The position numbers and the translations under genes were made by a program. This document shows positions 4,025 through 31,100 of a stretch of DNA of 36,882 bases, in pieces. The notes beneath the pieces are model-generated. The model did no database searches. It was not told the origin of the DNA and was given only the letters and a program-made list of their open reading frames with translations. Every line of letters starts with the position of its first letter. Positions within the stretch are counted from its first letter, which is position 1. Origin of the DNA: Candidatus Vecturithrix granuli (GTDB lineage: Bacteria > Moduliflexota > Moduliflexia > Moduliflexales > Moduliflexaceae); the NCBI GenBank assembly GCA_000739535.1, contig DF820475.1, positions 151,685 to 188,566 on the forward strand. The letters are read 5' to 3'.

Positions 4025-4139
4025 GGTAGTGGTTCAATGATAAGTGATCCCGTTCCCTGAGCGGAGTCGAAGGGAACACTTCCAGGCTCGTTTCGACTTC
4101 GCTCAACGAGCGGATGTCACTTACCGTTTAACCATTACC
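4025..4139. mobile_element. 115-bp MITE-like element with 8-bp target-site duplication
   Basis: The ends are GGTAGTGG and CATTACC, with imperfect terminal inverted repeats of about 23 bp. The element is flanked on both sides by the same 8 bases, GAACAACG (4017-4024 and 4140-4147), a clean insertion footprint. Inside are two hairpins whose loops are GAGCGGAGTCGA and TCGACTTCGCTC and whose stems are GTTCCC/GGGAAC and CTCGTT/AACGAG. A second 115-bp copy is at 19736-19850. It has no coding capacity, so a transposase would have to act in trans. It sits between hsp20 copies 1 and 2; the rest of the gap (3980-4235) has no other feature. Confidence 0.85.
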
Positions 4140-4235
4140 GAACAACGAATACTCTACCAGGGCAGCAGAGAGACAGGTAGCAGCCCAGGAGCTTGTTGCG
4201 TGTTCCCTGCTGTCTTGAAGAGGGAGGGATACACT

Positions 4236-4706
4236 ATGTTAACTCGTTGGGAACCTTTCGGCGGTATTCGACAACGGGGTGATGTATTTAGCGAACTCAC
4301 CCGAATGCAAGAGGAAATGAATCGGTTTTTTGATGACTTTTTTGGCGAACAGCGGCGCGGCCTGACAGAAGGTGCGTGGCTGCCGGCTGTGGATGTGTCG
4401 GAAACTGACGCTGAATTCGTGGTACGGGCCGAATTGCCTGGCATGACGCAGGAGAATATCGAAATCAACGTGCAGGATAACATCCTGACCCTGAAAGGCG
4501 AAAAGAAACAAGAGAAGAAAGAAGAGAAGGAAAACTTCCATCGCCTGGAGCGCAGCTATGGCAGTTTCAGCCGTTCCTTTACACTGCCGGCCGGCGTCAA
4601 ACCGGAAGACATCAAGGCCAGCTTCAAAGATGGTGTGTTGGAAGTGACGATGCCGAAAACGGAAGAAGCGAGACCTAAAAAGATTGCAATTACCGCCGGA
4701 TCCTAA
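4236..4706 (+). CDS. hsp20: Small heat-shock protein, Hsp20/alpha-crystallin family (copy 2)
   Basis: A 156-residue holdase of the Hsp20 class A type. An amphipathic N-terminal arm (MLTRWEPFGGIRQRGDVFSE, then RMQEEMNRFFDDFFG) is followed by the alpha-crystallin domain from about residue 45 (WLPAVDVSETDAEFVVRAEL) to the FKDGVLEVTMPK hallmark, and the tail ends with the I-x-I motif KKIAI. The ATG at 4236 is chosen because GGGAGGG (4222-4228) precedes it and the paralogue start aligns. A longer in-frame extension to 4044 runs through the inserted element and the gap, and is unlikely to be translated. The lysine/glutamate run near residues 88-98 is a charged loop. Closely similar to copy 3 downstream. 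Confidence 0.96.
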   Translation: MLTRWEPFGGIRQRGDVFSELTRMQEEMNRFFDDFFGEQRRGLTEGAWLPAVDVSETDAEFVVRAELPGMTQENIEINVQDNILTLKGEKKQEKKEEKENFHRLERSYGSFSRSFTLPAGVKPEDIKASFKDGVLEVTMPKTEEARPKKIAITAGS

Positions 4707-4717
4707 ACCTCTGATTG

Positions 4718-4740
4718 CCGGGTGCGCTTGTCGCACCCGG
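4718..4740 (+). other. Intercistronic hairpin between hsp20 copies 2 and 3
   Basis: Nine-base-pair perfect stem CCGGGTGCG with loop CTTGT. No T-run follows, so it is more likely an mRNA-stabilising or attenuating structure than a terminator. The next gene starts 26 bases later. Confidence 0.6.
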
Positions 4741-4766
4741 TATGGGCGTGAAAGGAGGGAGATGTT

Positions 4767-5255
4767 ATGCTTGAAAAACTGGCAAAATGGAATCCTCTGA
4801 AAAGCGTCCGAGCAAAAGGAGAACACAACAGTGCGAAACTCAAAGAACTGGGACAGTTGCAAGACGCGCTGAACCGTCTGTTTGACAGGTTCTTTCAAGA
4901 TCGCTATACCGAAAGCGAAGACGCCCTCTGGTTCCCGGCCGTTGATATGGCAGAAACGGATACAGCAATTGTGATACACGCCGAATTACCCGGTATGACC
5001 AAAAAAGATGTGGATATTTCCTTACAGGACAATATCTTGACCATCCAGGGGGAGAAAAAACGGAAGAAGAAAGCCAAACATGAAGATTTCTATCTTGTGG
5101 AACGCAGTTTTGGACGCTTTTACCAGGCATTCACACTACCGGCCGCTGTGAAGAGCGACAAGATTACCGCGACCTTCAAACATGGGGTGCTGACGATTAC
5201 GTTGCCCAAGTCAGAAGGAGCGCAGCCGAAACGGATTGCAATTTCGACCTCATAG
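4767..5255 (+). CDS. hsp20: Small heat-shock protein, Hsp20/alpha-crystallin family (copy 3)
   Basis: Third tandem Hsp20, 162 residues. The N-terminal arm carries LQDALNRLFDRFFQDRYTE, the same amphipathic helix type as copy 2. The alpha-crystallin domain starts near residue 51 (LWFPAVDMAETDTAIVIHAE), includes a basic run (EKKRKKKAKHEDFYLVERSF), and ends with FKHGVLTITLPK and the I-x-I tail RIAI. A strong AAAGGAGGG (4751-4759) lies eight bases before the ATG. Copies 2 and 3 are more alike than either is to copy 1, suggesting a later duplication. Such paralogues often co-assemble. The cluster ends at a strong terminator (5475-5508). Confidence 0.96.
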   Translation: MLEKLAKWNPLKSVRAKGEHNSAKLKELGQLQDALNRLFDRFFQDRYTESEDALWFPAVDMAETDTAIVIHAELPGMTKKDVDISLQDNILTIQGEKKRKKKAKHEDFYLVERSFGRFYQAFTLPAAVKSDKITATFKHGVLTITLPKSEGAQPKRIAISTS

Positions 5256-5474
5256 AAACTTGTTCATCTATTTTAGGATGCAGATAACGATGAGTCGTGG
5301 TTCTTTGACTTTATGAAGCAAGTAATGGTGGGTATGAACTGTTAATACCATCTCTCGTATTCGAACGGTTCTTAGTGACTGACTTTGTTGCAGCAGCACT
5401 CAAAAAAGATTGCATTAACACTTCATCATCATCTCAGTGAGAACAAAAATGTATGTTCTCAATGGGATGTTCAA

Positions 5475-5508
5475 ACGGCAGGGTGAGTCACTCTGTCGTT
5501 TTTTTTTT
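5475..5508 (+). terminator. Rho-independent terminator of the small heat-shock cluster
   Basis: A 12-bp stem (ACGGCAGGGTGA against TCACTCTGTCGT, two G-T wobbles) is followed by ten T residues. It lies 220 bases after copy 3. The intervening 5256-5474 holds only an 8-bp hairpin (TGAGAACA...TGTTCTCA, 5438-5461) and no gene. Confidence 0.88.
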
Positions 5509-5517
5509 GCTCACTCT

Positions 5518-5635
5518 ATTGTTATACTTGAGGCCGGGTAAATTTGTGAAACCAAAGAAACCGGGTTTTTCGGAAAAACCTCGGTTTCTCGCCGTGCTCA
5601 AATTCACAAATTTATGTGGTCTCAAGTATAGCAAT
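5518..5635. repeat. 118-bp nested palindromic element (MITE-like, no clear TSD)
   Basis: Three nested inverted repeats are present. The outer pair is ATTGTTATACTTGAG with its near-complement (5518-5535 and 5618-5635). The middle pair is AAATTTGTGAA with TTCACAAATTT (5540-5550 and 5603-5613). The centre is the AGAAACCGGGTTTTT palindrome also found at 3264-3296. No target-site duplication could be recognised. It lies between the heat-shock terminator and groES. Confidence 0.75.
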
Positions 5636-5718
5636 AAAACACTTTGAGTACTGGTTATAAAACTGAGAAACATTGAAAAGGAGTGATTATGAGCCAAGGC
5701 TCGCCCGACGTCTGTAGC

Positions 5719-5818
5719 GCGAAACTCCAGTTTCGCGGTTGTCAACGGATGCGCGAAACTGGAGTTTCGCACTACATTTTCAGCGGTTGTCAACGGATGC
5801 GCGAAACTGGAGTTTCGC
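5719..5818. repeat. Three palindromes in the groES leader, partly a 48-bp direct repeat
   Basis: GCGAAACT-CC-AGTTTCGC at 5719-5736, 5753-5770 and 5801-5818; the second and third have GG at the centre. The second and third copies sit in a 48-bp direct repeat that also contains GGTTGTCAACGGATG. Just upstream is a well-placed AAGGAG and ATG (5689) opening a 59-codon frame that runs through the repeats and overlaps the groES start. This may be a leader peptide or chance. I see no CIRCE operator here. Confidence 0.85.
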
Positions 5819-5845
5819 GCTACATTTTCAAAGGAGGCTACCTGT

Positions 5846-6133
5846 ATGAAACTTCGTCCATTACATGATCGAGTGCTCGTCAAACGCCTTGAAGCAAAAG
5901 AGGTCATGAAAGGCGGAATTATTATCCCGGATACCGCGAAAGAAAAACCCCAGGAAGGAAAAGTCATCGCGGTCGGCCCTGGAAAAGCGGGTGATGACGG
6001 CAAGGTACGGCCAATGAATGTTAAAGCCGGCGACCGGATTTTGTTTGGGAAATACGCCGGAAATGATGTCAAAATTGACGATGACGAATATGTGATCATG
6101 CGTGAAGATGATATTCTTGGCATCCTGGAATAA
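5846..6133 (+). CDS. groES: Co-chaperonin GroES (Cpn10)
   Basis: The heptameric lid of the GroEL folding chamber, cytosolic. It has 95 residues, the normal length, and begins with the family start [19 protein letters not shown]. The flexible mobile loop that contacts GroEL is visible at about residues 19-33 ([17 protein letters not shown]), and the C-terminal [20 protein letters not shown] is typical. AAGGAGG at 5831-5837 sits eight bases before the ATG. Upstream lies an array of repeats (5719-5818) instead of a recognisable heat-shock operator. groEL follows after 114 bases containing a stem-loop. Confidence 0.98.
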
Positions 6134-6180
6134 AGTAAGGATTATGATTCAAAAATTTCCTATACAATAGATGGAGGAAA

Positions 6181-7870
<1,690 letters not shown>

Positions 7871-7891
7871 TCTGAAAAAACCACGAAAATA

Positions 7892-7922
7892 AACCTGCCA
7901 GGGCTTTAATCCCGGGCAGGTT
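7892..7922 (+). terminator. Stem-loop after groEL, possible terminator
   Basis: AACCTGCC-A-GGG pairs with CCC-G-GGCAGGTT around a 7-base loop, 21 bases after the groEL stop. A T-run is absent on the plus strand, so termination is uncertain. The rest of the gap to 8133 holds a CCCTTTCAGGG motif at about 7973 (REP-like) and a G-rich stretch at 8012-8031, and no gene. Confidence 0.45.
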
Positions 7923-8133
7923 ACAACATAATAACTCGACAATTGGGGGATTCATCTGGCTCTATTCCGCTGCCCTTTCAGGGCACAAACCCAAAACCCA
8001 TACCTGTAAGAGGGGTGGGGGTGGGGGTGCCTGAAATGTCGAGAATTTAACGGTATCGAGATAATAACATCTGCCCGTTTTTGAGGGCCACAGAAGGAAT
8101 AAAGCAAAAAAATAGTTGCAGGAGGTACTTGGT

Positions 8134-9357
8134 ATGAAAACGAGAAAGGCATGTCTGAAACACCTGTTGAGCATTTTGCCTATACTTACTGTTGGATTGA
8201 TGCTGTGGACAGTTCCTTCCTTTGCTCAGGAAACCGAAGAGGAAAAACCTGAGAGACTGGTAACGATGGCAATTGAATATCCGGGAATCAAAATTCCTAC
8301 AGAAAAAAATGTGTCAATGAAAATCCTGTTGTATAACAACGGGAAAACCGGCGAAGATGTTGAAGTCTGGGTCGCCGAAGCCCCTGAAGGATGGGACGCT
8401 GTGATTAAAACCTATAAATTTACGGTTACCGGTATTCATGTTCCCTCGGGTGAGACAAAAACGCTTGATTTTGAAGCTGAACCGGACGAAACGATTACAC
8501 CTGGAAAATATGAGTTCAGGATTGAAGCGCAAACGCCGGATCAACGCTTTAAAATGGCGCAACTTCTCACGGTGACGGTTGAAAAGAAACAAGAAGAAGC
8601 AAAAGAATCAAAAGATATTACCTTGAATACCACCTACCCTGTCCTGCGAGGACCAACGGATGCCAAATTCGAGTTTTCTGTGGAAGTAAAGAGCGATTTA
8701 GATGAAGATGCGGTTTTCGATCTGGCTGCCAATGGCCCAGAAGGATGGGAGATCAACTTTAAACCAGGGTACGAGTCCAAGTATATTTCCAGCCTCCAAA
8801 TCCAGGCGAACCAGAGTAAGAACGTTTCGGTGGAAATAAAGCCGCCTATCACGGCCAAAGCCGGTGAATATCCGGTTACAGTGCGGGTGTCTTCCGGCGA
8901 CGAGGCCAAGGCTGAAATCGAGTTGAAAGTGGTGCTTACCGGAACGTATGGGCTTCAAGCCGGAACTCTGAATGATCTCCTGTCGCTGGATGCAAAACCG
9001 GGGAACCCTTCGATGGTCTCGGTCTATATTAAGAATACTGGCTCAGCGCCGAATCAGAATATTCAGTTTATGACCTTCAAACCGGAAAATTGGAAGGTTG
9101 AATTCGAGCCTGAAAAACTCGACGTCCTGAATCCAGGAGAAGTGAAACAGGTAGAAGTCAAAATTACGCCCTACGAGGAAGCCCTGGTGGGAGATTACTC
9201 GGTCGCTGTTGAAATTCAGGGGGAAAAAGCCTCAAAAACCCTGGAATTCAGAACAACCGTCAAGGCGTCAGCCGCCTGGGGCTGGATTGGGATTCTGATT
9301 ATTGTGGCGGTCGTTGGTGGATTAACAACCTTATTCAAAAAATTAGGAAGGCGATAA
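8134..9357 (+). CDS. Secreted, membrane-anchored NEW3 (Ig-like) domain protein
   Basis: A 407-residue exported protein. An N-terminal signal sequence (basic MKTRK, hydrophobic core to about residue 28, likely cleavage after PSFA) is followed by three Ig-like repeats of the NPCBM-associated NEW3 type, roughly residues 40-150, 155-270 and 275-380. Each contains the GW/NW pattern (PEGWDA, PEGWEI, PENWKV) and a proline-glycine strand late in the repeat. A C-terminal membrane helix (WGWIGILIIVAVVGGLTTLF, about 382-401) is followed by a basic stop. AGGAGGT precedes the ATG at 8134. The three-base gap to the ABC ATPase indicates an operon. In such operons the NEW3 protein is probably an extracytoplasmic component of the exporter. 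The substrate is unknown. Confidence 0.88.
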   Translation: MKTRKACLKHLLSILPILTVGLMLWTVPSFAQETEEEKPERLVTMAIEYPGIKIPTEKNVSMKILLYNNGKTGEDVEVWVAEAPEGWDAVIKTYKFTVTGIHVPSGETKTLDFEAEPDETITPGKYEFRIEAQTPDQRFKMAQLLTVTVEKKQEEAKESKDITLNTTYPVLRGPTDAKFEFSVEVKSDLDEDAVFDLAANGPEGWEINFKPGYESKYISSLQIQANQSKNVSVEIKPPITAKAGEYPVTVRVSSGDEAKAEIELKVVLTGTYGLQAGTLNDLLSLDAKPGNPSMVSVYIKNTGSAPNQNIQFMTFKPENWKVEFEPEKLDVLNPGEVKQVEVKITPYEEALVGDYSVAVEIQGEKASKTLEFRTTVKASAAWGWIGILIIVAVVGGLTTLFKKLGRR

Positions 9358-9360
9358 ATT

Positions 9361-10113
9361 ATGGAAACACAAGCAGTCATTGCAACCGAAGGTTTAACCA
9401 AGATGTACAACGGACAAACCGCTGTGGATCATCTGTCCTTTCAAGTGAATGAAGGCGAAATCTTCGGATTCCTGGGACCCAACGGCGCAGGCAAAACCAC
9501 AACCCTCTTAATGCTGCTCGGTTTGACCGAACCGAGCAGCGGTACAGCCCGCGTATTGGGGCTTGAACCGATCCGCCATCCGATTGAGGTCAAGCGCATG
9601 ATCGGGTATCTCCAGGAAAACATGGGGTTTTATCAGGATTTAAACGCCCGGCAGATGCTCAGATATATCGCGGACCTAAACCACATTCCGTCAGATGTGG
9701 TCAACGAACGGATCGAACAATCCCTGGAAACCGTGGGGCTTGACAAAGAAGCTGAAAAGAAGATCGGGGCGTATTCACGTGGAATGCGCCAACGCCTGGG
9801 CATCGCTGAGATTTTGATCAAACAGCCGAAAGTCGCCTTTTTAGACGAACCGACCCTGGGGCTTGATCCGGATGCCACTAATCGCATGATGGCTCTGATC
9901 CAGACCCTGAGCAAGGAGCAAAAGATGACGATCCTGCTCTCCTCGCACCTCTTGTATCAGGTCGAGAAAATCTGCGATCGGGTTGGGATTATGCTCAACG
10001 GACGGATGGTGGCGCAGGGACCGATGGAACAACTCGCCCATGAAAAGTTTGGAGTAGGCAAAGAAAAATATACGTTAGAAGAAATTTACATGAAGTATTT
10101 CCAGGAGGGATAA
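9361..10113 (+). CDS. ABC transporter ATP-binding protein
   Basis: The 250-residue nucleotide-binding subunit of an ABC-2-type exporter, acting on the cytoplasmic face of the membrane. Motifs appear in order: Walker A GPNGAGKTT at 39-47, Q-loop Q85, ABC signature YSRGMRQR at 138-145, Walker B VAFLDEP at 158-164 with catalytic E163, and H-loop H196 in LLSSHLL. The pattern YLQENMGFYQDLNARQML resembles the CcmA/NatA-like drug and antibiotic exporter group. Its ribosome site (AGGAAGG, 9345-9351) lies inside the end of the NEW3 gene, so translation is coupled. The permease follows after a repeat. The transported substrate cannot be inferred. Confidence 0.95.
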   Translation: METQAVIATEGLTKMYNGQTAVDHLSFQVNEGEIFGFLGPNGAGKTTTLLMLLGLTEPSSGTARVLGLEPIRHPIEVKRMIGYLQENMGFYQDLNARQMLRYIADLNHIPSDVVNERIEQSLETVGLDKEAEKKIGAYSRGMRQRLGIAEILIKQPKVAFLDEPTLGLDPDATNRMMALIQTLSKEQKMTILLSSHLLYQVEKICDRVGIMLNGRMVAQGPMEQLAHEKFGVGKEKYTLEEIYMKYFQEG

Positions 10114-10123
10114 TTGCTCCAAC

Positions 10124-10176
10124 GTACCCCGGACACCCTTGTTCGGAAAGAACCCCGGACGGGAATGTCCGGGGTA
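10124..10176. repeat. 53-bp palindrome of the GTACCCCGGACA family
   Basis: A diverged copy: GTACCCCGGACACCCTTGTT, spacer, then GGGAATGTCCGGGGTA. It is placed between the ABC ATPase stop and the permease ribosome site, where it may form an intercistronic hairpin. Confidence 0.85.
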
Positions 10177-10207
10177 GGAAGCTTGAATCGTTATCAGGAG
10201 GAATAAT

Positions 10208-11164
10208 ATGCATGGTATTACAGTGATCTGGAAAAAAGAATTGTCTGATCATTTTAGCAGTTATCGCTTTTTGCTGCTCTTTGCGTTAATTGCCATGGTC
10301 AGCCTAATTACCGTCTATATGGCGGGGATCAGTATTACAAAGGACTTGCAAGGCGTGGCGAAACCGGAGTATGTGTTCTTAATGCTCTTTACCGCCTCCG
10401 GGGTCCGTTTTTCTCTGGTGCAGTTTGTGTCGTTTTTCGGGCCGTTGATCGGCTTGATCTTAGGCTTCGATACGATTAACCGGGAACGGAACGAGGGCAC
10501 CCTGAGCAAATTACTCTCCCAGCCGATTTACCGCGATGCGGTCGTCAATGGCAAATTTTTGGCCGGCGTCAGCGTGATTGCCATTATGATGGCCGCGATT
10601 GTCCTGATCATTACCGGCTTAGGGTTGATCATGATGGGCGTTGTTCCCGGCATTGAGGAAATCTGGCGCATCCTCATCTATCTGGTCATCAGCGTGTGCT
10701 ACATTTCCTTCTGGCTTGGGTTAGCGATTCTGTTTTCGATTCTCTTTCGCAGCGTAGCAACCTCAGCCCTGGCAGCCTTAGCGATTTGGATCTTTTTTTC
10801 CTTTTTCCTGTCTCTGGGCGCAGGTGCCATCGCGAATGCTTTGACCCCTGAGGCGGGCGCCACTGATCCTGAAGCCTTGCTGCGACGCATCAAGATCGAG
10901 CATGCAATTACCTTGGCATCGCCAATGGCGTTATATACGGATTCCACGGCAACCATTATTGATCCGATGCGACGCACAACTCGCACCGTGATGCAGATGG
11001 GGATGATGGAGCAAATTTCCATGAAACGCTTCTCAGGGCCCCTGCCCCTGAGCCAGAGCTTCCTGGTAGTCTTGCCCTACATCATCACGCTGGCGGCGAT
11101 CACCATCATCTGCTTTGCCATCTCTTATACGGTCTTTATGCGTCAGGAAATCCGATCGATCTAA
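10208..11164 (+). CDS. ABC-2 type transporter permease
   Basis: Integral-membrane partner of the upstream ATPase. The 318 residues contain about six hydrophobic segments: 20-41, 68-88, 117-145, 153-181, 184-209 and 288-312. The cytoplasmic loop at 88-110 (DTINRERNEGTLSKLLSQPI) is the NosY/ABC-2 hallmark that contacts the ATPase. A loop of about 75 residues lies between helices 5 and 6. AGGAGG at 10197-10202 gives a strong start. The order NEW3 protein, ATPase, permease implies one exporter unit. The gene could also be called a Cu-processing NosY-like permease, but no copper genes are nearby. Confidence 0.92.
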   Translation: MHGITVIWKKELSDHFSSYRFLLLFALIAMVSLITVYMAGISITKDLQGVAKPEYVFLMLFTASGVRFSLVQFVSFFGPLIGLILGFDTINRERNEGTLSKLLSQPIYRDAVVNGKFLAGVSVIAIMMAAIVLIITGLGLIMMGVVPGIEEIWRILIYLVISVCYISFWLGLAILFSILFRSVATSALAALAIWIFFSFFLSLGAGAIANALTPEAGATDPEALLRRIKIEHAITLASPMALYTDSTATIIDPMRRTTRTVMQMGMMEQISMKRFSGPLPLSQSFLVVLPYIITLAAITIICFAISYTVFMRQEIRSI

Positions 11165-11187
11165 GTGTAACGTGGGATTATTCTGTC

Positions 11188-11235: not shown

Positions 11236-11290
11236 AACTCCATCAGTTTTACCTTGACAGAATCCTACGGCGCGTATGATGATTTTCCTC

Positions 11291-11323: not shown

Positions 11324-11338
11324 CAGAAGGAGGATGAT

Positions 11339-12049: not shown

Positions 12050-12088
12050 AAACATGTCATTATGAAGTTTTGCTCACAATAGAAAAAA

Positions 12089-13178: not shown

Positions 13179-15248
13179 TCAGGAACGAACAACGCGGACG
13201 GAGTTCATGTCGTCCATAGTGCACCAGCCCACGTCGCCAGTGGTGAAATGGACGAGCCACGCCGACGATGACGAACGTTTATCACCTGACCAGCACCATG
13301 TCTGATTGCTGTTAAATACCGAATTGATATACAATCCATTCGATTGCTTTTTCGGTTCCAGCAGCGACATCAATTCCGGCATGGTCGGCAGGCGCCAGTC
13401 GTAAAAACCAGCAAACTCTTCCCGGTTCAGTGTGTCAACATATTCCTCGGCTTGTTCATAGGTTAAAAAGCCTTCCGAACCTGACTTCTGCCACAGTAAG
13501 CCGGTCGCCCTGTCGAACACAACATTGCCCCGATCTTCATAGTCATTCCGAATATATTCCAAGGGTCGCCAAACGTCAAATTTTTCCCATTTCGCTGGCT
13601 TCAATCCGAGTACTTTTACAGCATCGACATCTGAAATTGTCAGAGGTTCACGTCGCAACAACCCCATTTTTATTTCACAGGTTTCAGGCAAGGCGGCTTG
13701 CAATTCCTGTTCTTGCGCTGAGGTCACGGGTTTGATCAGGTGTAACTGCTGTAAATTTCTGAGTCCCCGCAACAGCAGCACCTCATCCTCTGCTTTCCAT
13801 TCTTGCAGTTTCAGCGTGGTGATCTCGGGCAAAACTTTCGCAGGCAGCCTGGTCAACACCCGTGTTTTGCCATCTTTGACGCTATACTCGCCGTTCAAAT
13901 CACTGCGTTCGAAAAAGGGGACGGTGAAGTTTTTCCAGATCATTTCCTCAAAAAAGGCTTTGGCCTGATCCATGCCGTCGAAATCTAATTCTTGCCGGAA
14001 CGCCGCATTGAAAACCGCTTCTTCGGCTAAAAAATATTCCAGCACCGATTTGTGGGAGAATTTGTACTCTTCACGGGCGCTGCGATTGAGCAGCGAGCGG
14101 CTCTTCATCTCCATCTCGCTCAGTTTAATCCCATGCTTTTCAGCAAAGGGTTGAATTTCCCGGCCGCTGATTAACAGGCTGCTTTGCCGTTCGCTGCGCC
14201 AGCGCCGGTAAAGATCAACCGCGATCTCACGGGAAAACTGGTATAACTGCTTCATATAGTCGTCAGGACGGTCTGGCGCGACTTTTCGCGCCTCGCGTTC
14301 GACCCAGCGGTTGATCAATTCCGCGTACACTTCAAAGGCGGCGTTGTACGGGCGATCGTGTTTCAAAAGGTCTTCGATATAGCTGAGCAGCATCGGCCGC
14401 ACCATCAGGTTCGGGCAGGACTCCACAATCTGCTGCGCTTTCCGCCGTTTCGCCCTTTGCAGCAGGGAAAAGCGTTTACGTAAATACACCCGGATGTCCT
14501 GTGCGTCAAAGGGTGAAAGATAGAACTTGCGAAACAACCGCTCCCCGCCTTCGCCGCCAAAGCGCATCACGCCGGTTTCATGCGGTTCTTCATCTTCACT
14601 GGGGAAAAACTGCGTGCGGCAGGTCAGCACCACTTCCCGAAAATGCACGACTTTCAAGATTAACTCCTGCAAACGCTTTTTGTAATCCTGTACCGCCTGA
14701 TGATCCTCATCAAAGGCATCCAGCAGCAGAATCGTGTTCGCTTTGTCCTCTATCTTTTCGATTTCCTTGTCAATATCCGGGAAACCTAAGGGAAAGAGTT
14801 TGATCTGATACGGCGCGCCGAAGAATTGCTCGTGATAGCGCCGATAGAGATTGAGCAGAAAGGTGGTTTTGCCCATGCCGGAATCCGCCAGCACAATGTA
14901 AAACTGACAATCGTCCTGATGCGGCTTAAACGCTTTTTTGAGGAAAAACGGAATGACTTTTTCCCTGGCGGCAAAGGCATACGTGCGTCCCGGTTCTTCA
15001 TCCTGAGAGGGCGCGACGTTCTGACATTTGGTTTCCACATAATAGCGCGTCGCGCGTTCGATTTCCAAATCCGTGTAAAAGGGGTGCAGGCTGCGCTTCA
15101 ATTTCCGATCCTGATACAACTTATACAGCTTTGTAACAAGCGTCGCCGCCGAACCGAACCCTGCCGCGATTGCCATCAACAGAGTTACGAGTTTCGGATA
15201 GCCAAGTGGTGCTAATTTTTCAATAAGGTATTGCAGTATATCGTTCAT
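13179..15248 (-). CDS. Membrane-anchored NACHT/STAND NTPase with C-terminal Lcl (DUF1566) domain
   Basis: A 689-residue multidomain protein. Residues 19-42 form a membrane helix. The NTPase follows with Walker A ADSGMGKTTF (121-130), NACHT-type Walker B TILLLDAFDED (172-182) and sensor VVLTCRTQF with R211. A helical/winged region ends with FSHKSVLEYFLAEEA (397-411), typical of NACHT ATPases. A short linker with a few leucine-rich turns (GLRNLQQLHLIKP) leads to an Lcl/DUF1566 domain (about 574-689: FDRATGLLWQ, YDWRLPTMPEL, WCWSGD, VRVVRS). Bacterial NACHT proteins are often anti-phage sensors. Lcl domains have C-type-lectin-like folds and are sometimes targets of diversity-generating retroelements. 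No reverse transcriptase is visible here. The start at 15248 follows AAGGGA. The function is inferred only from domain architecture. Confidence 0.85.
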   Translation of the reverse strand: MNDILQYLIEKLAPLGYPKLVTLLMAIAAGFGSAATLVTKLYKLYQDRKLKRSLHPFYTDLEIERATRYYVETKCQNVAPSQDEEPGRTYAFAAREKVIPFFLKKAFKPHQDDCQFYIVLADSGMGKTTFLLNLYRRYHEQFFGAPYQIKLFPLGFPDIDKEIEKIEDKANTILLLDAFDEDHQAVQDYKKRLQELILKVVHFREVVLTCRTQFFPSEDEEPHETGVMRFGGEGGERLFRKFYLSPFDAQDIRVYLRKRFSLLQRAKRRKAQQIVESCPNLMVRPMLLSYIEDLLKHDRPYNAAFEVYAELINRWVEREARKVAPDRPDDYMKQLYQFSREIAVDLYRRWRSERQSSLLISGREIQPFAEKHGIKLSEMEMKSRSLLNRSAREEYKFSHKSVLEYFLAEEAVFNAAFRQELDFDGMDQAKAFFEEMIWKNFTVPFFERSDLNGEYSVKDGKTRVLTRLPAKVLPEITTLKLQEWKAEDEVLLLRGLRNLQQLHLIKPVTSAQEQELQAALPETCEIKMGLLRREPLTISDVDAVKVLGLKPAKWEKFDVWRPLEYIRNDYEDRGNVVFDRATGLLWQKSGSEGFLTYEQAEEYVDTLNREEFAGFYDWRLPTMPELMSLLEPKKQSNGLYINSVFNSNQTWCWSGDKRSSSSAWLVHFTTGDVGWCTMDDMNSVRVVRS

Positions 15249-15595: not shown

Positions 15596-15763
15596 CCTCT
15601 GAAAATGACTTTTTTGGGCGAACAACGGCGGGATAGAATTTGTTTCCCTCCTGGGAGCAGGTTTGTGAAGTTCTCCGTGGGGTCCACCTTCCGAGGCGGC
15701 CTCCACGTGAGCGAATGTCTTCAGGACTTACGCAGTCCCCCCCTCAACCCCCCCCCGTAAACG

Positions 15764-15877
15764 GCAGGGCTGTGAAGTTCTCGCAAAACATACCGTCTCG
15801 ACTCCGCTCGACGTCCGTCGTTGCGGTCATCGAGCGGAGTCGAGATGACAAACATCCGCAGAACTTCACAGCCCTGC
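15764..15877. repeat. 114-bp composite palindrome with paired conserved-loop hairpins
   Basis: Perfect outer arms of 18 bp (GCAGGGCTGTGAAGTTCT at 15764-15781 and its complement at 15860-15877). Inside, two hairpins carry the loops TCGACTCCGCTC and GAGCGGAGTCGA with stems CGTC/GACG and GTCATC/GATGAC. It is the same loop family as the 115-bp elements at 4025 and 19736, but the ends differ and no target-site duplication is seen. C7 and C9 tracts lie just before it (15737-15756). Confidence 0.82.
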
Positions 15878-15913
15878 TCTTGAAAGGGGCCTGCTTGCAA
15901 ATACCGGATATGA

Positions 15914-19615: not shown

Positions 19616-19735
19616 AACACACTCTCCTTGCGGTTCGGAAGGTTTACGATAAAGGAATTCATATTCCCCCCAGGTCAGATGAACGCACTGCGTTCCCGGC
19701 ACACGCCGTGCCATCGAAGGATACATAAAAATATG

Positions 19736-19850
19736 GGTAGTGGCTACCTTGTACATGATGACCGGTCGTCGAGCGGAGTCGAGACGAGCACGCAGACGTT
19801 CCCTTCGACTTCGCTCAGGGAACGTTCATCATGTACAGAATACCACTACC
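19736..19850. mobile_element. 115-bp MITE-like element, second copy, with 8-bp target-site duplication
   Basis: GGTAGTGG...CCACTACC ends with imperfect inverted repeats of about 25 bp, flanked by AAAATATG on both sides (19728-19735 and 19851-19858). Same length and ends as 4025-4139, but the arms between the ends and the loops have different sequence while still pairing. The two internal hairpins have stems TCGTC/GACGA and ACGTTCCCT/AGGGAACGT around the conserved 12-base loop. It supplies the TAG that ends the relic frame at 19851-20346. Confidence 0.85.
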
Positions 19851-20346
19851 AAAATATGGACATGGAAATGGATTTGTCAACGATTTTTTGGCGGAATTTT
19901 ATCTCTTCCAGCAGATTGACAAAGGCGCAGCGGATCGAACTCTCGTTGCGCGTGCCGCCAAAGCTTTTATATTGAATGTTTTCATCTATCGAGGGTAAAT
20001 CCGGCCGGTCATCCCACACACTTGAGGCAATCATGGTCAATGCGGATACTCATTCCGGATTTCTCAGGGCGACAAGCTGGGCAATCATCCCACCTAAGAA
20101 CATGCGTACGATATGGGCTTTGAGGACATGATAGAAATTCAGGACTCTCACCGCATCGTCAGCCATACCTTCCATATCATATTCCGGCTGACCCGGCTGG
20201 TATGACGTCGAACGACCGACATCACGCTTGTCATATCGCATGACAAGCCTTCCCCTATCAGCCAATCGCTGACAAAATTCCGCATCCCATTTGATACTAC
20301 CCATTGATGCCGTGATAACGGGGCGTCCGAACAAAATACCTACCAT
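19851..20346 (-). pseudogene. Decayed alpha/beta-hydrolase fused to a restriction-type relic
   Basis: One reading direction with several lesions. From 20346, EFCQRLADRGRLVMRYDKRD then VGRSTSYQPGQPEYDMEGMA matches the N-terminal half of an alpha/beta-hydrolase. The nucleophile elbow normally reads GMSLGG; here it is RMFLGG, so the catalytic serine is lost. An in-frame TGA (20052-20050) replaces the Arg of the usual HPERV, after which VSALTMIASSVWDDRPDLPS continues in frame. Another TGA lies upstream (20352-20350). The frame then switches to YKSFGGTRNESSIRCAFVNL, which resembles the N-terminus of type ISP/IIG restriction-methylase proteins. The end is cut by the 115-bp element. Two gene relics joined by deletion; not functional. 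Confidence 0.75.
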
Positions 20347-24004: not shown

Positions 24005-24159
24005 AACAATTATGACAAACCCGACCCATCCAGATGATATTCCCGGACAACTGTGATGTGAAGGCACACCATTGATTACTCTCTGAGGTCAAACAACTGA
24101 AATCATACCGCTAATTGAAGAAAGGGGTGGGTAAACACGGGTTCGACTTCGAAAAAATG

Positions 24160-24296
24160 TACAGCATTATTCATTGGTGTTGACCTTCTTTATTTGTACC
24201 CCGGACATCCCTGTCCGGGCTGCAAATAGACCGGACAGGGATGTCCGGGGTACAGGTCTGTACAAAGGTGCGTCAATTTAACTGAATAATGCTGTA
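24160..24296. mobile_element. 137-bp nested inverted-repeat element, MITE-like
   Basis: Outer ends TACAGCATTATTCA and its complement (24160-24173 and 24283-24296), with TTGAC/GTCAA further in. Nested inside is a perfect 58-bp GTACCCCGGACA-family palindrome (24196-24253), the same length as the copy at 1317-1374. No target-site duplication is recognisable. 24005-24159 has no gene. Confidence 0.7.
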
Positions 24297-24306
24297 AGGT
24301 AGTGAA

Positions 24307-24453
24307 ATGAGTACACTAAACGATGTGCCTTCCCATCAGGCCTCTGGGTGGAAGAGTCGCTGGTCTTTTATTACAATAACGGTTTCCTTCCTTATTTCAG
24401 ATATTGCTTGCCTTATTTCAGGTATTGCTGGCAGAATTTATCGGTTTTTGTAA
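24307..24453 (+). CDS. Possible 48-residue hydrophobic peptide
   Basis: ATG at 24307 with a weak AAGG upstream. The translation is basic at the start (GWKSRWSF) and hydrophobic after (ITITVSFLISDIACLISGIA), like a small membrane peptide. The 3' part contains a 21-bp tandem duplication (CCTTATTTCAG-TATTGCT-G, two copies at 24393-24432). No family is recognised and it may be chance. 24454-24684 holds only the degP leader. Confidence 0.2.
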   Translation: MSTLNDVPSHQASGWKSRWSFITITVSFLISDIACLISGIAGRIYRFL

Positions 24454-24684
24454 TTTGGCGCCAGTCGCGTAAATGGCTGTTAAAGCCGTGAACGAGATTT
24501 TCTCAGAATATCCTCACAAGTTGGCATCAGATTTGCTTTTAGATCATGGCAGAATGCGTAATGTGCATTGAGTAAATAGCAAGTTAAATAACATTATCTG
24601 ATGCTTGAAATAAGGGAGTGGAATTCTGCACAGTGTTGTTGGAGAATCTGTTCCCTGTTCTTCAAGTCACAGGAGGTTTCGTAT

Positions 24685-26160
24685 ATGAAATCCGCTAAAT
24701 TCGTTCGCAATTTCATGCTGGGAATAACGGGCAGCGTGTTAGCAGTTATAGTGGTCTTTACCCTATTTAACGCCTTAGGACAGATGGCCGTCGCGCAAAA
24801 CCAGAGTGCAATCGTAAACCCGATCCCGGTCAAAAGTCAGAGTACAGGTCAGTTTCAGGGATTAAGTCAGACGTTTCGCGACGTGGCAAAAGCGGTCAGT
24901 CCGGCCGTGGTTTACATCAGTACGGAGCAGACCATGCAGATGTCGGAACAGTATCAACAATTCTTTAATGACGAATTTTTCCGTCGGTTCTTTGGCGTGC
25001 CGGAGCAACGGGAATACAAGCAACACGCCCTGGGATCCGGGTTTATCGTCGAACCGGATGGGTATATTTTGACCAACAACCATGTGGTCGAACATGCTGA
25101 TAAAATTCGGGTCACGCTACCGGATAAACGGGAATTTGACGCCAAAGTTGTGGGGACTGATCCCAAATCCGATGTCGCGGTAATTAAAATTGACGGTAAA
25201 GATCTCCCGGTCGCGCCGTTAGGTGATTCGGCGGCAGCCGCGGTTGGAGATTGGGTATTAGCGATTGGCACGCCGTTTGGCTTATCGCAGACGGTTACGG
25301 CCGGGATTATCAGTGCGGAAGGCCGGGCTAATATCGGAATCGTGGATTACGAAGATTTTATCCAGACGGATGCGGCCATTAATCCGGGTAATAGCGGCGG
25401 CCCGCTCGTCAATATCAACGGCGAGGTCATCGGGATCAATACCGCGATTTTCAGCCAAAGCGGCGGGTATCAGGGCATTGGTTTTGCGATTCCGATCAAT
25501 ATGGCGAAACATATCATGCAAAGTCTCATGACGCATGGGAAAGTGGTGCGCGGCTGGTTAGGCGTTATGATCCAACCACTGACTCCGGAAATAGCAAAGA
25601 GTTTTGGTCTGAAAGAAGCGACGGGCGCGCTGGTGGGGGATGTTACGAAAGATAGCCCCGCCGACAAAGCCGGCATTAAACGCGGCGATGTGATCATCGC
25701 CCTGAATGGACAGGCGGTTGATACGCCAACCACGTTGCGTAATCTGGTGGCGCAGACTGAAATTCAGAAGAGTGTGCCAGTGACGATAATTCGGAATGGC
25801 GCGGAACAAACCCTGCAAGTGAGCATTGGCGAACAACCGGCCAGTAGCCAGGCGGAAGCGGCGACCTCAGAAATTGAGGATCAGTTTGGGTTGAAGGTGC
25901 AGGAATTAACCGCTGATATTGCCAAACAGTTAGGTTATATGGATGAAAAAGGCGTGGTCATCGTCGCTGTCAAAGCGGGCAGCCCGGCGCAAGAAATCGG
26001 GTTACGTCCCGGAGATTTGATCAAGGAAATCAACCGGCAGCCGATTACATCACTGGCGGATTATCAGAAAGTGATGGCCGGGTTGGAAAAAGATCAGGGG
26101 TTATTGTTACTCGTGCGCCGCGGCGATAACACCTACTATGTGGTTGTGGAAGGGGAATAA
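24685..26160 (+). CDS. degP: DegP/HtrA-family serine protease
   Basis: Periplasmic quality-control protease with 491 residues from the ATG at 24685 (AGGAGGT at 24671-24677; an upstream in-frame start lacks a ribosome site). A hydrophobic signal sequence or anchor covers residues 11-35 and ends near AVAQ. The trypsin-like domain has the triad H133 (LTNNHVVEH), D163 (PKSDVAVIKID) and S237 (NPGNSGGPLV). Two PDZ domains follow, about 295-385 (RGWLGVMIQPL...IKRGDVIIALNGQ) and 400-488 (GVVIVAVKAGSPAQEIGLRPGDL). The LA-loop segment FFNDEFFRRFFGVPEQ matches the DegQ/DegP type. No sigma-E promoter motif could be identified upstream. Confidence 0.97.
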   Translation: MKSAKFVRNFMLGITGSVLAVIVVFTLFNALGQMAVAQNQSAIVNPIPVKSQSTGQFQGLSQTFRDVAKAVSPAVVYISTEQTMQMSEQYQQFFNDEFFRRFFGVPEQREYKQHALGSGFIVEPDGYILTNNHVVEHADKIRVTLPDKREFDAKVVGTDPKSDVAVIKIDGKDLPVAPLGDSAAAAVGDWVLAIGTPFGLSQTVTAGIISAEGRANIGIVDYEDFIQTDAAINPGNSGGPLVNINGEVIGINTAIFSQSGGYQGIGFAIPINMAKHIMQSLMTHGKVVRGWLGVMIQPLTPEIAKSFGLKEATGALVGDVTKDSPADKAGIKRGDVIIALNGQAVDTPTTLRNLVAQTEIQKSVPVTIIRNGAEQTLQVSIGEQPASSQAEAATSEIEDQFGLKVQELTADIAKQLGYMDEKGVVIVAVKAGSPAQEIGLRPGDLIKEINRQPITSLADYQKVMAGLEKDQGLLLLVRRGDNTYYVVVEGE

Positions 26161-26188
26161 CGCTTAATTGGCAAACCTTACCCCTACC

Positions 26189-26215
26189 CCCCTCTCTCCG
26201 ACAAGGAGAGAGGGG
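26189..26215 (+). terminator. Possible terminator after degP / CCCCTCTC-type palindrome
   Basis: An 11-bp stem CCCCTCTCTCC with GGAGAGAGGGG around GACAA, 28 bases after the degP stop, followed by only a weak T-run. It may equally be an intergenic repeat, since similar CCCCTCTCC/GGAGGGG stems occur at 28118-28178 and inside hsdM. Confidence 0.5.
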
Positions 26216-26339
26216 AACTTTCAAAAATAGATCCTGACACTGAACCATCCTCCCTCAAATTCCTCTAGAAAAAATACCGGTAAAACCAATGAAATGCTCT
26301 CGCGCAATTGTAATGGCGGCTATTATAATGAGTTTAATT

Positions 26340-26469
26340 GTTACTGTAAATAATTCTGTGCCGGAGTGCAAAAGTTCTACTTTTGCGTGTCAATTTTCCG
26401 GCAAACACTCACTTGCGAAAGTAGAACTTTCGCACTCCAGCCAGGTGGCACAGAATTATTTACAGCAAC
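26340..26469. mobile_element. 130-bp MITE-like element with 8-bp target-site duplication
   Basis: 23-bp terminal inverted repeats with one mismatch (GTTACTGTAAATAATTCTGT and on at 26340-26362; complement at 26447-26469). It is flanked on both sides by GTTTAATT (26332-26339 and 26470-26477). The core carries a GGAGTGC/GCACTCC palindrome like that at 3193-3241, with hairpins GCAAAAGT-TCT-ACTTTTGC and GCGAAAGT-AGA-ACTTTCGC. Without the insert and one duplication a frame of about 55 codons would join (ATG at 26294 to 26596), but I cannot assign it. 26161-26694 holds no other gene. Confidence 0.85.
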
Positions 26470-26694
26470 GTTTAATTTGATTATCGTGCATCGCGGCCTG
26501 ACCGAACGGCAATTGAAAGAAATCATCAAAAAATACGGAGGAATGGATCATAAAAATTCTCCCCTTTTTCAGAAAACATCATCAAAAAAGATTTGACACC
26601 ATCCTGGAATATAACGAGTGTTAAACATATCATGTCGAGAAAAATTTGCCTTTGGTGTAAGTGTTTTCTCACACTTTGAGAGGAGGAAGATTGT

Positions 26695-27090
26695 ATGCAA
26701 ACCATTGCAAATACACCGAATTATATGTTGGCTGTTGATCCATCCAAAAATCGGATCTATTGGACGCCCAATGGATTATGGGATAAGACAATGAGTGCGC
26801 CGGAGCTTGTGGGTAACTGGGAGAAGGCCCGGCAACGTGTCTTATCAGGATTTACCATTCTGGTGGATGCCAGACAGATCAAAACATTGTCTGCGGAGTG
26901 GGCAGACACGTTTGAGCAAATCCAGGAACTTATGGTGACATCAGGGCTTATGGCATCAGCCGAGGTGCTGCCCGAGGATGCAATTACCAAAATGCAGGCC
27001 AAGCGTGTCGCGCGACAATCGGGGATGCGCAGAGAAGTGTTTGCCAGCGTAGAGGAAGCGGAAAAATGGCTGAACAGCCTGCGAACGTAA
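26695..27090 (+). CDS. Small STAS/SpoIIAA-like domain protein
   Basis: 131 residues, cytosolic, no signal. The arrangement YMLAVDPSKNRIYWTPNGLW (strands), KARQRVLSGFTILVDARQIK (strand-turn) and a C-terminal FASVEEAEKWLNSL recalls small STAS- or SpoIIAA-like regulators seen across many bacteria. In these, 'F..vD.r' and the final 'eeA..WL' are the conserved parts. The ribosome site GAGAGGAGG (26678-26686) is strong. It is convergent with the metalloprotease gene, 25 bases apart. The family match is by eye, and the role is inferred only as a possible regulator. Confidence 0.6.
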   Translation: MQTIANTPNYMLAVDPSKNRIYWTPNGLWDKTMSAPELVGNWEKARQRVLSGFTILVDARQIKTLSAEWADTFEQIQELMVTSGLMASAEVLPEDAITKMQAKRVARQSGMRREVFASVEEAEKWLNSLRT

Positions 27091-27115
27091 ATTATACACA
27101 TCATGGCTGCCGGAA

Positions 27116-27832
27116 TTAATATTTCCAATCCGCATGGCTGATTGGAAGTTTGTTCAATTCGGCTTTCAGATGTTTCCAATTGGGGAGACAGGCGTCCATA
27201 TAAGCCCGGAATCGCTCGTTGTGATGGCGTTCTAACAAATGTACCATTTCATGCACGATGATATATTCCAGGCAGTGCAGGGGTTTTTTGGCTAATTCCA
27301 GGTTGAGCCAGATACGTTGCTTTGGAATGTTACAGGATCCCCATCTGGTTTTCATGAGCCTGACCTGCCAGTCTTCCACCGTGACATTCAGGCGTTCTTC
27401 CCATTTGGCGATCAGGTCGGGAATTGATTTTTTGAGTTCCCGGCGATACCATTCGGTCATGATGTCGTGCCGTTTGGCGGTCGGCGTGCCGGGTCTGACA
27501 TACAGATCAATGTAAGTTTTGCTGCGTAACACCACCTGCGGAGGGGCTTCGCGTTCAATCACGTTCAGCAAATAGCGCCGGCCCTGAAAATAATGACTTT
27601 CGCGGTTTTTGTATTCGCGCGCCGAAAGCCGCTCCTGTCCGTCGAATTGGCGTTGACGGCGTTTAATCCATCCCAATTTCGAAACGGCAAACAGCCGGAT
27701 GGCATCGGCATTCATCCCCAGCGGGGCCGCAAGCCGCACCCGGCCGGTGGGCGGATACACACCCAGATGGATGTTTTTGATGTCTTTGCGAACCACATCA
27801 ATAGTAATATTGTTGATGCTGATCTGTTCCAT
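27116..27832 (-). CDS. YgjP/DUF45-type zinc metalloprotease (M48-like) of the restriction locus
   Basis: 238 residues. The catalytic HExxH is VHEMVHLLERHH (193-204: H194, E195, H198), with the downstream NERFRAYMDACLPNWKHLKA typical of DUF45/SprT-like proteins. The N-terminal half contains VRLAAPLGMNADAIRLFAVS and KTRWGSCNIPKQRIWLNLEL, the family's conserved GSC segment. These genes are frequent passengers of type I restriction operons and may help turn over the restriction subunit; that role is known by association, not proven. It starts 348 bases after the hsdR stop, on the same strand. GGTGGGGG precedes the ATG. A repeat block lies in between. Confidence 0.93.
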   Translation of the reverse strand: MEQISINNITIDVVRKDIKNIHLGVYPPTGRVRLAAPLGMNADAIRLFAVSKLGWIKRRQRQFDGQERLSAREYKNRESHYFQGRRYLLNVIEREAPPQVVLRSKTYIDLYVRPGTPTAKRHDIMTEWYRRELKKSIPDLIAKWEERLNVTVEDWQVRLMKTRWGSCNIPKQRIWLNLELAKKPLHCLEYIIVHEMVHLLERHHNERFRAYMDACLPNWKHLKAELNKLPISHADWKY

Positions 27833-27848
27833 GAGTTAACCCCCACCT

Positions 27849-28110
27849 TCAATCCTGTTGAGTTAAGAGATATCTATCCCTTTCAGGGAAAAATGGTGTG
27901 GGACATCTTCTCTTCCCCCAGGGCGGCGCTGCGCTGACCCTGGGCTAATATATGTCCTCCCTTCGGGGGAAGGATCTTTGCCCTGAAAGGGCTTCATAGA
28001 GTAGCCCAGGGACAGCGTAGCGCCACCCTGGGACATGAAAACCCTCGAAGACCAATATTCCCTGAAAGGGATGCATAATCATACGCTCTCGGTTAAGTCA
28101 ACAGTATTGA
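27849..28110. repeat. 262-bp composite of REP-like palindromes between hsdR and the metalloprotease
   Basis: Outer arms TCAATCCTGTTGAGTTAA and the near-complement TTAAGTCAACAGTATTGA (three mismatches) enclose several hairpins: TCCCT-TTC-AGGGA, CCCAGGG...CCCTGGG (twice), GCCCT-GAA-AGGGC, and TCCCT-GAA-AGGGA. The stem bases change in pairs (G-C to T-A). No clear target-site duplication. Resembles the REP family near the transposase. Confidence 0.75.
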
Positions 28111-28117
28111 CCCCGGT

Positions 28118-28178
28118 CCTCCCTCGAAGGAAGAGGGAGCAGACTCCCCTCTCCTTTGGGGAGGGGTTGGGGGAGGGA
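28118..28178. repeat. CCCCTCTCC/GGGGAGGGG palindrome cluster at the hsdR 3' end
   Basis: CCTCCCTC...CTCCCCTCTCC-TTT-GGGGAGGGG...GGGAGGG. Purine/pyrimidine-rich arms. Similar material is at 26189 and is translated in frame within hsdM at 34590-34635. It lies three bases from the hsdR stop and may act in transcript ending. Confidence 0.6.
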
Positions 28179-28180
28179 TT

Positions 28181-31100
28181 TTAATATTCTCGCTGATTTT
28201 TCACGAGTTCAAGGATGTAGGCCGCATCGGCCTCGTGCACCTGATAGGTTTCCAGCACGTCTTGAATGGCGTACCGGACTTCCCGGGTTTTGATTTTATT
28301 GTCGCGCCAGCCGTCTTTTTTGGTGCTCAGAATTTTTTGGTCTAAGGCGTTGACTAATGCCTCATTCCGGCCCAGATTGTCATATAACGCGCGTTTGGCG
28401 TTCGTGTTAAGCGATGCGGGATAATCCGCGGTGGTGTTTGGTTTTTTCACCTTGCCCGAAAGCGCGATAATTTCCTGCAAATACTGCTCATACTCCAGGG
28501 TAGCTGCTTTTCTCATTTTGATGAGTTCGTCCAGCAACACGCTCATTTTCTCGTAATAGGCCGGGTTGGCCGGGCTTTCTTCGATGATGACTTTGCGCAA
28601 GTTGTTTTCAATGGTTTCGGCCATGGCTTCTTTGTCGTCTCGCATGGTTTTCGGCAGATCATCCACTGCACTTTTGCCTTTTTCGATCAGTAATTCCACT
28701 AAACTCAAATCGTCAAAGTTGGCTAACATGCGGCTTTCTTCGGCCCCGATGTAACTGTCAATCAGATGCCGCATGGCCGGTTCATACTGCTTCAAATCCA
28801 CATAATCGCCGCTGCCAAGCTGGATTTCTTTACGCAGATGTTCGAAGTGCCTGACATCCTCTTTGATCCGGGCGATCTCCTGTTGAGTATATCCGGCTTC
28901 CGGCATTTCATCAGCAATGTTGGCGTAGGCCCGGATCAGGGCCAGCGTCAGTTTATATAACGCCACGCGCCGCGGTTCAGTGTCTTTGAGCAGATCCGGA
29001 TCCTGCGTGCCGCCGCCGCAGAAGTAATGCAGATAGGCCAGAGTGTCTTTCGGCGGCTCTACGGGTTCGCATAAGGCTTTGACCGCTTCCAGGGCTTCAT
29101 CCAGGCGTTCTTTACCTTTTTGCACCCGGTCTTTAAGCAAACCTTCCACATCCGCTTTTTCATAGCCGTCAAAGGCTTCGGAGGTATAATCCTGAAAGGC
29201 TTTTTCCAGGCTGTTGAACAAATCCATGTAATCAATGATATACCCGTAATCTTTATCCTCGCCGTCTAAACGATTGACCCGGCAAACCGCTTGAAACAGG
29301 CCGTGATCGCGCATTTTTTTGTCAATGTATAAGTAGGTGGCCGGCGGCGCGTCAAAGCCGGTCAGCAGTTTGTTGACCACAATCAACAATTTCATCTGCG
29401 CTGGTTCGTTGATAAATTTCTCTTTGACCTCTTTTTCGAACTGTTCCACTTTGTTGAGCGCGCTTTCGGGGTCTTCATGGAAATACTCGGCCAGCATTTT
29501 GCGATAAATTTCAAATCGCTGCAATTTTTCGGTGTAGCCTTCGCCGCTTTCTTCGCCTTTGATGTCAGTATGATTGGGTACAAAGGAGGTCACGATGGCG
29601 CACTGTTTCAGTCCGGCTTGTTGAAACAATTCATAGTAGCGGCAGGCGTTGTAAATGCTGTCGGAAACCAACAGGGCGTTGCCGCGCCCGTTTTGCAGGC
29701 GTTCTTTTTTCGCCATATCGAGCATGATGTCCATCACGATTTTTTCCAGACGCGATTTGGAACTGAACACTTTTTTCAGCGTGCCCCATTTTTGCTTGAG
29801 TTCCGCTTTAACAAAGTCGGTCAGGCCGCGGGTTTTGAGTTCGAACCATTCATCAATCTTTTGCGGGGAAGTTAGTTTTTGCTCCACATCCCGCGCTTCG
29901 TAGCGCAGATCAAGCACGACGTTATCGGCCACGGCTTCGTTGAATTTGTAGGTATGAATGTAGGGGCCAAACACTTCCAGACTGGTTTGTTTATCGGCTT
30001 TCAAGAGCGGCGTACCGGTGAAACCGATAAACACGGCCTCGGGCAGAAAACCTTTCATGGCTTTGTGCAGTTTGCCTGATTGGGTGCGGTGACATTCATC
30101 CACAAACACATACAGGTCGCCTTTGGCCTTGAAATTGGTCGGGATGCTGCGGTGCAACTCCTGCACATAGGCGTCCACATCCCCTTCTTCTTTGCCGCCG
30201 AATTTGTGGATCAAAGAACAGAGCAGCCAGGGCGACGGGTCGTTCAGGGTTTCCAGTACATCTTTGCCGCTTTTGGTGCGGTAAATCGTTTCCTCAACGC
30301 CGTTATAGACTTTTTCAATTTGCTCGTCCAGTTCTTCGCGGTCAGTCAAGATCAAGACTCTGGCGTTGAGGACGTGTTCACGCATCCATTTGGTGAGCCA
30401 CACCATAGTCAGGCTTTTACCGCTGCCCTGCGTATGCCAGATAATGCCGCCTTCGCGGCGTTTGATGAACTCTTGTGCGGCTTTGACGCCAAAATACTGG
30501 TTGTGACGGCAAAGCTTCTTGACGCCGCGATCATAGACGATGAAATCGTGCAGAACCTCGATCAAACGGTCTTTGTTGAGCAGTTGGATGATATTTTGAT
30601 CCAACGGATACTCGTACCGGGTGGCTTTTTCATGGATCAGGGGTGTTAAGTTCCGGGTATTCTGCTCATCTCGACTCCGCTCGATGAACGGCGATTCGGG
30701 CGTCGAGCGAAGTCGAGACGCCGCATACTGCTCATCTCGACTCCGCTCGATGAACGGCGGTTCGGGCGTCGAGCGAAGTCGAGACGCCGCATACTGCTCA
30801 TCTCGACTCCGCTCGATGAAAGGCGATTCGGGCGTCGCGCGAAGTTGAGGCGAATCAGCCTCTTTCCATTTCAAAAAATACTTCTCTCTGGTTTCAATCG
30901 CGCCGTAGGCCAGTCCTTCGATGTCGTTGCCGGCCATGACCAATTGAATCGTGCTGAAAAAGGGCTTGATAAAGAGGTGTTTCTGATTGTCTAAATTCTG
31001 GCGGATGCCTTCGGACACGGACACGGTGCTGCGTTTGAGTTCCAGCACGCCGATGGCGATGCCATTGATATACAGCACTAAATCCGGGCGTTTTTTGTGG

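Follow-up and report, generated by a model that had tools for sequence, protein, structure and literature searches.

Among the repeats in a 36,882-nucleotide stretch of the genome of Candidatus Vecturithrix granuli (assembly GCA_000739535.1, contig DF820475.1, forward-strand positions 151,685 to 188,566; hereafter the window) is a 12-base sequence, GAGCG[A/G]AGTCGA or its complement TCGACT(C/T)CGCTC, which an initial annotation had described as the unchanging loop, or tip, of a family of hairpins whose stems differ from copy to copy. The four sites named in that annotation do carry the sequence, and all eight of the stems it listed are found in the window. In particular, there are 11 exact copies, starting at 4059 (−), 4093 (+), 15798 (+), 15832 (−), 19771 (−), 19805 (+), 30671 (+), 30705 (−), 30737 (+), 30771 (−) and 30803 (+), together with a twelfth, decayed copy at 30837 (−) that differs at 2 bases. 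When up to 2 mismatches are allowed, the number of matches in the window rises to 16, as compared with 5.0 (s.d. 2.3) in shuffled sequence. In each pair of copies in the window, 34 nt separate the start of one 12-mer from the start of the other. The hairpin family is real, structured and more widespread than could have been known from the window, and we propose that its copies in this genome are the cores of miniature inverted-repeat transposable elements (MITEs).

Alignment places the pairs in the middle of elements of 114–118 bp with long terminal inverted repeats (TIRs), and at least three unrelated end sequences, referred to here as chassis A/B, C and D, hold the same hairpin-pair core (core 1). 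The first such element in the window (4017–4147) joins chassis A to a core-1 pair: an 8-bp duplication, GAACAACG, that can be read directly at 4017–4024 and 4140–4147 bounds a 115-bp element at 4025–4139 with ends GGTAGTGGTT and AACCATTACC. Its two hairpins lie at 4052–4077 (−), with stem GTTCCCT/AGGGAAC and tip GAGCGGAGTCGA at 4059–4070, and at 4087–4110 (+), with stem CTCGTT/AACGAG and tip TCGACTTCGCTC at 4093–4104. The second (15763–15878) is of chassis C, with ends GGCAGGGCTGTGAAGTTCT and AGAACTTCACAGCCCTGCT, tips at 15798–15809 and 15832–15843, stems CGTC/GACG and GTCATC/GATGAC, and the short 5′ tags beside the stems directed inward; next to it, the left end of another element of chassis C, with a different core (core 4, GTGGGGTCCACCTTC), lies at 15656–15691 (+). 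The third (19728–19858) is of chassis B, in which the 8-bp duplication AAAATATG at 19728–19735 and 19851–19858 bounds a 115-bp element at 19736–19850; its hairpin pair spans 19766–19825, with tips at 19771–19782 and 19805–19816 and stems TCGTC/GACGA and ACGTTCCCT/AGGGAACGT.

The genome-wide search that the initial annotation had proposed gave 757 exact 12-mers (374 + 383) in 8.38 Mb on 21 contigs, as compared with 0 + 0 for the reversed pattern. Closer analysis used contig 21, most of contig 20 and the window (2.03 Mb), with a further 400 kb as a replicate, and counts that extend beyond these 2.4 Mb are pattern totals. The 2.03 Mb contain 204 tips of the form GAGCGNAGTCGA, 165 of which lie within 45 nt of a partner in opposite orientation. 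Among 91 distinct arm pairs, stem positions 1–6 are paired in 63–91% of cases, as compared with 30–71% after arms are exchanged at random among copies (z 6 to 11), whereas pairs 7 and 8 showed no significant pairing above the same control in the 2.03 Mb. The compensatory change claimed for the stems is real; the impression that each copy has a stem of its own did not hold, since most copies fall in a few related element families with near-constant stems. In an unbiased census of hairpins with stems of at least 6 bp, GAGCGAAGTCGA was by far the commonest long loop. Within the tip, position 6 is occupied by A in 137, G in 59, C in 7 and T in 1 of the copies, and variants with one mismatch number 67 at this position and at most 4 at any other; position 6 likewise takes nearly all of the variants in the separate 400 kb.

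The ends of the elements provide evidence for mobility. Both chassis ends were found at 57 of 99 hairpin units (~60%) and at least one end at 76, and flanking inverted repeats are present in 58 of 91 cases as compared with 0 in the control. Elements of chassis A/B, which start with GGTAGTGG, have exact 8-bp direct repeats in 17 of 34 cases (0 of 340 control positions), a finding that was replicated in the separate 400 kb (7 of 9). Those of chassis C start with GGCAGGGCTGTTAAGTTCT and have repeats of 7–8 bp in 8 of 28 cases; for chassis D, which starts with TATAGCGATCCTAAAT, no repeat exceeds 3 bp, which would fit a TA-type target. Thus, the elements are short and non-coding with terminal inverted repeats, as MITEs are, and they show a target-site duplication of fixed length (8 bp) for chassis A/B and in part (7–8 bp) for chassis C. 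Chassis A also occurs at 183–185 bp with a different core (core 2, four hairpins), and chassis C also occurs with cores 2, 3 and 4, so that the same core recurs across chassis and a given chassis can hold more than one core. The copies of chassis A and C on contigs 20 and 21 illustrate these other palindromic cores, for example CAGGAGTGCGACGAGGTCGTCGC, which contains four hairpins.

Consistent with insertion, 76% of units in this genome are intergenic, as compared with 14% of random positions, and they show no preference for convergent, divergent or tandem gaps over random intergenic positions, as expected of insertions that are purged from genes. Three other genomes of the same phylum (of four compared) have 0 or 1 copy each, so the expansion here is recent or local. 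Tandem copies were also seen: the hairpin pair is repeated with a 53-bp unit, and within a NACHT gene the tip by itself forms a minisatellite with a 15-bp unit (contig 21:998562–999000 and contig 20:144392–144460).

The remaining copies in the window lie within a gene. Within hsdR of a type I restriction system (28181–31486, −), the core-1 pair is repeated three times in tandem at 30664–30853; each copy is 66 bp (22 codons) and keeps the reading frame, and the last tip is the decayed one. The window HsdR has ~66 extra residues between its N-terminal and ATPase matches relative to EcoR124I HsdR. A probable relic of a chassis C end at 30636–30654 (+; 4 mismatches of 19) lies 16 nt upstream of the first tip, the distance seen in intact chassis C elements, and the array probably derives from a decayed MITE. 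In-frame copies elsewhere in this genome are found in hsdM and hsdR of a second type I system, an HmaB-like methylase, a NACHT-FGE protein, an HmaA-like helicase and a UvrD-exonuclease protein (contig 20:456834–465633; contig 21:412701–415247; contig 20:142496–145519; contig 19:255189–258812 and 319191–322649), and they explain the short repetitive peptides, such as ERSRDEQ and STSLDDR, inside otherwise normal proteins here. Six of the seven real open reading frames with in-frame tips are anti-phage or restriction genes (HsdR, HsdM, HmaB-like, HmaA-like, NACHT-FGE), which is a raw count that may be explained by genes that are long and tolerant or horizontally acquired. By our reading of the sequences, in-frame hosts in other phyla include ordinary housekeeping genes, and we therefore claim no general link to defence.

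The tip is not confined to this phylum. Among the matches listed in a scan of species genomes were Spirochaetes, Bacteroidetes, Cyanobacteria, Chloroflexi, Planctomycetes, Acidobacteria, Alphaproteobacteria, Clostridia, candidate phyla and others, with 1 to 851 copies per genome in 46 genomes among those listed and controls near zero. The pattern by which the 46 genomes were selected fixes the first two stem pairs, so that only pairs 3 onward are informative; with one hairpin taken per locus, covariation is seen at pairs 3 (z 12.9) and 4 (z 12.0) in a stem of ~4–5 bp. All four bases occur at tip position 6 in these genomes. In Pseudanabaena, ends like those of chassis D surround a tip pair. 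Two sister tips were also seen in other genomes, GAGCGNAGCGA in 16 copies and GAGCTTGTCGA in 11; the former is 11 nt long and lacks the bulged base, and both are rare here (5 and 1).

Being inverted repeats, the 12-mers within a pair can also pair with one another, and the 12-mer therefore forms a loop in just one of the conformations; indeed, the minimum free energy (MFE) fold of the whole element is a long hairpin in which the tips pair with each other. With the consensus of chassis A, two separate hairpins (−33.2 kcal/mol) and a simple long hairpin (−32.9 kcal/mol) are nearly equal in energy, and the MFE fold is at −39.3 kcal/mol. Covariation within each small hairpin and the occurrence of single hairpins in other phyla argue that the conserved unit is the two-hairpin form. 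As a single strand, the tip could plausibly adopt a structure with tandem G·A pairs, G3–C10 and C4–G8 pairs, a bulge at position 9 and a GNA triloop with a free middle base, which would account for position 6 alone being free. The proposed centre resembles the C-GNA-G triloop of the unusually stable DNA mini-hairpin d(GCGAAGC) (used in, for example, PMC4686876); unlike in that hairpin, the triloop here would be flanked by tandem G·A pairs and an extra pyrimidine, and our literature search found no measurement of the 12-nt tip.

Taken together, we put at roughly 80% the probability that the copies are hairpin-pair cores of non-autonomous MITEs of ~100–118 bp that are moved in trans, the core being an older hairpin that they captured. 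Each chassis would be moved by a transposase that recognizes its ends, thereby spreading the core, the core itself would be a REP-like (repetitive extragenic palindromic) hairpin that spans phyla and predates its capture, and its stem would stay paired through compensatory change while the tip stays fixed. For chassis A/B the candidate is of IS1 type: the genome's single IS1-family locus opens with GGTAGTGG and so shares its first eight bases with the chassis A/B end, from which we infer that an IS1-type transposase moved these elements. As to other candidate movers, ISAs1 (PF13808) is absent, the ISL3 element has different ends (GGCTCTTCCGTAAA) and the IS630-type (PF13358) loci do not have chassis D ends.

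Several observations weigh against this reading or its parts. In the IS1-family copy the reading frame is interrupted by a stop codon and the right end falls in a gap, and no intact autonomous partner with ends matching chassis C or D was seen in this genome. Twenty-three of the 99 units have no chassis, and the genome bin is reported to be 10.75% contaminated. Most copies in other phyla are solitary and are not flanked by inverted repeats, so that capture by MITEs does not explain the origin of the hairpin there. With respect to the proposed tip structure, its internal pairs find no support in the folding energy model, and position 9 can be C in other genomes.

As cores of MITEs that are bounded by TIRs and duplicate their targets, the pairs require no unknown system for their spread in this genome. 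The initial annotation's statement that no described family fits was upheld for the tip: no Rfam covariance model matches over the copies (the sole match in the window being Acido-Lenti-1), and searching the literature for the literal sequences of the tip and its sister tips returned nothing relevant. A tip fixed letter for letter save one free base, on a stem that drifts with compensation in many phyla, points either to a single conserved reader or to a single fold that is exceptionally favoured. These findings raise the tentative possibility, to which we give well under even odds, that GAGCGNAGYCGA marks an undescribed class of mobile or regulatory hairpins that spans phyla, in which it would serve as a fixed recognition tip read as single-stranded DNA or RNA by a widely distributed non-Y1 factor, and that unrelated MITEs have captured it repeatedly because the pair benefits them. 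The reading given in the initial annotation is partly supported, in that a fixed tip with compensatory stems is found here and independently in other phyla; no link to a Y1 (HUH tyrosine) enzyme was found.

It is unlikely that the pair acts mainly as a bidirectional terminator or as an mRNA-stabilizing structure under selection. The predicted RNA folds are strong (z −9 to −12), the stems are compensated and the location is intergenic, as such a role would have it; however, convergent and tandem gaps in this genome show no excess of copies, some copies lie in frame in coding genes, Rfam gave no match and the hairpins belong to a mobile element whose TIRs alone would form a long hairpin. A terminator role in particular was rejected given that copies in this genome show no orientation bias.

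Less likely still is that each hairpin is a REP, possibly forming REPINs, and that a dedicated Y1 transposase mobilizes it as single-stranded DNA, this enzyme being either a REP-associated tyrosine transposase (RAYT) or the orphan subclass 1.2 protein encoded beside hsdR. The latter gene (31634–32086, −) has the DHVH / WQ / YIxxQKEHH signature of subclass 1.2, and is one of three diverged Y1 proteins of this orphan type in the genome, the others being at two other loci; subclass 1.2 Y1 proteins have been reported without REPs (PMC6006769). The presence of these proteins, together with high copy number, intergenic location, inverted dimers and a short 5′ tag beside the stem (CG at −8,−7 in ~90% of unique copies here; GTC in 43 of 119 elsewhere), speaks for such a partnership, and high-copy, short, intergenic palindromes that are often inverted dimers are what REPs are in general. 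Nevertheless, no hairpins flank the Y1 genes in this genome or in 15 high-copy genomes, and a Y1_Tnp match is missing in five of those 15, which speaks against a RAYT/REPtron partner, with the caveat that draft genomes can miss genes and absence in single genomes is weaker evidence than an association test. Such a test, in 247 genomes of one Bacteroidota class, found no association of subclass 1.2 with at least 10 hairpin copies (34/55 versus 100/192, Fisher p 0.22), and subclass 1.2 was not supported as the partner. Moreover, the mobile unit here is bounded by TIRs and 8-bp duplications, and the tags here (CG) and in other genomes (GTAG in 3, CGTC in 9 and TGTC in 30 of 119) do not place the family in the GTAG/CGTC superfamilies. 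The co-occurring single-strand nuclease or transposase that the initial annotation had suggested looking for was not found among Y1/HUH tyrosine transposases.

Equally improbable is that a few ancestral hairpins were amplified recently and that the apparent covariation reflects a handful of element families, as the near-constant stems of most copies here might suggest, given that distinct arm pairs still give z 6–11 and hairpins of many phyla taken one per locus give z 12–13 at pairs 3 and 4, whose sequence the search pattern does not fix.

Other features of the window include a tandem repeat (CCCCAGCCCCGCAGGGGCGTCAT... ATCGGGTGTAGCCCGATGA) at 32080–32340 that adjoins the Y1 gene and is open in several frames, an Acido-Lenti-1 RNA (RF01687) at 32508–32552 (+) that scores 37.5 bits against a gathering threshold of 37, and a STAND-like nucleoside triphosphatase at 13179–15248 (−) with an Lcl_C domain, a weak NACHT match and no PADLOC match.

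The elements described here share features with three known systems. Like REP elements and their dimers (the GTAG/CGTC superfamilies and the BIME (bacterial interspersed mosaic element) and REPIN arrangements; PMC3733652, PMC3116915), they contain hairpins of 20–40 bp in hundreds of copies, intergenic and in inverted dimers, with compensatory stems and with some copies in genes, and CGTC REPs, like the hairpin here, occur without a transposase (PMC3733652, PMC3116915). Unlike REPs, whose common feature is a 4-nt tag with a mostly short loop, these hairpins have a 12-nt tip in common, their tag is CG, a Y1 partner was not found and they are carried in TIR-bounded, target-duplicating elements. 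The TIR-REP composites of Pseudomonas putida and Pseudomonas fluorescens and the TIRYT repeats (PMC3733652) similarly join TIRs to (degenerate) REP units in hundreds of copies; however, those flank or derive from Y1 genes, whereas the elements here show no Y1 association, an intact tip and target duplications of fixed length. Finally, the elements resemble insertion sequence-derived bacterial MITEs, with IS1-like ends for chassis A/B, in being short, non-coding, TIR-bounded and present in many copies with an 8-bp target duplication, and differ from them in that the same palindromic core recurs in several chassis that are unrelated, and a single chassis can hold several cores. Unrelated MITE ends that hold common palindromic cores show modular exchange of the interiors of bacterial transposons.

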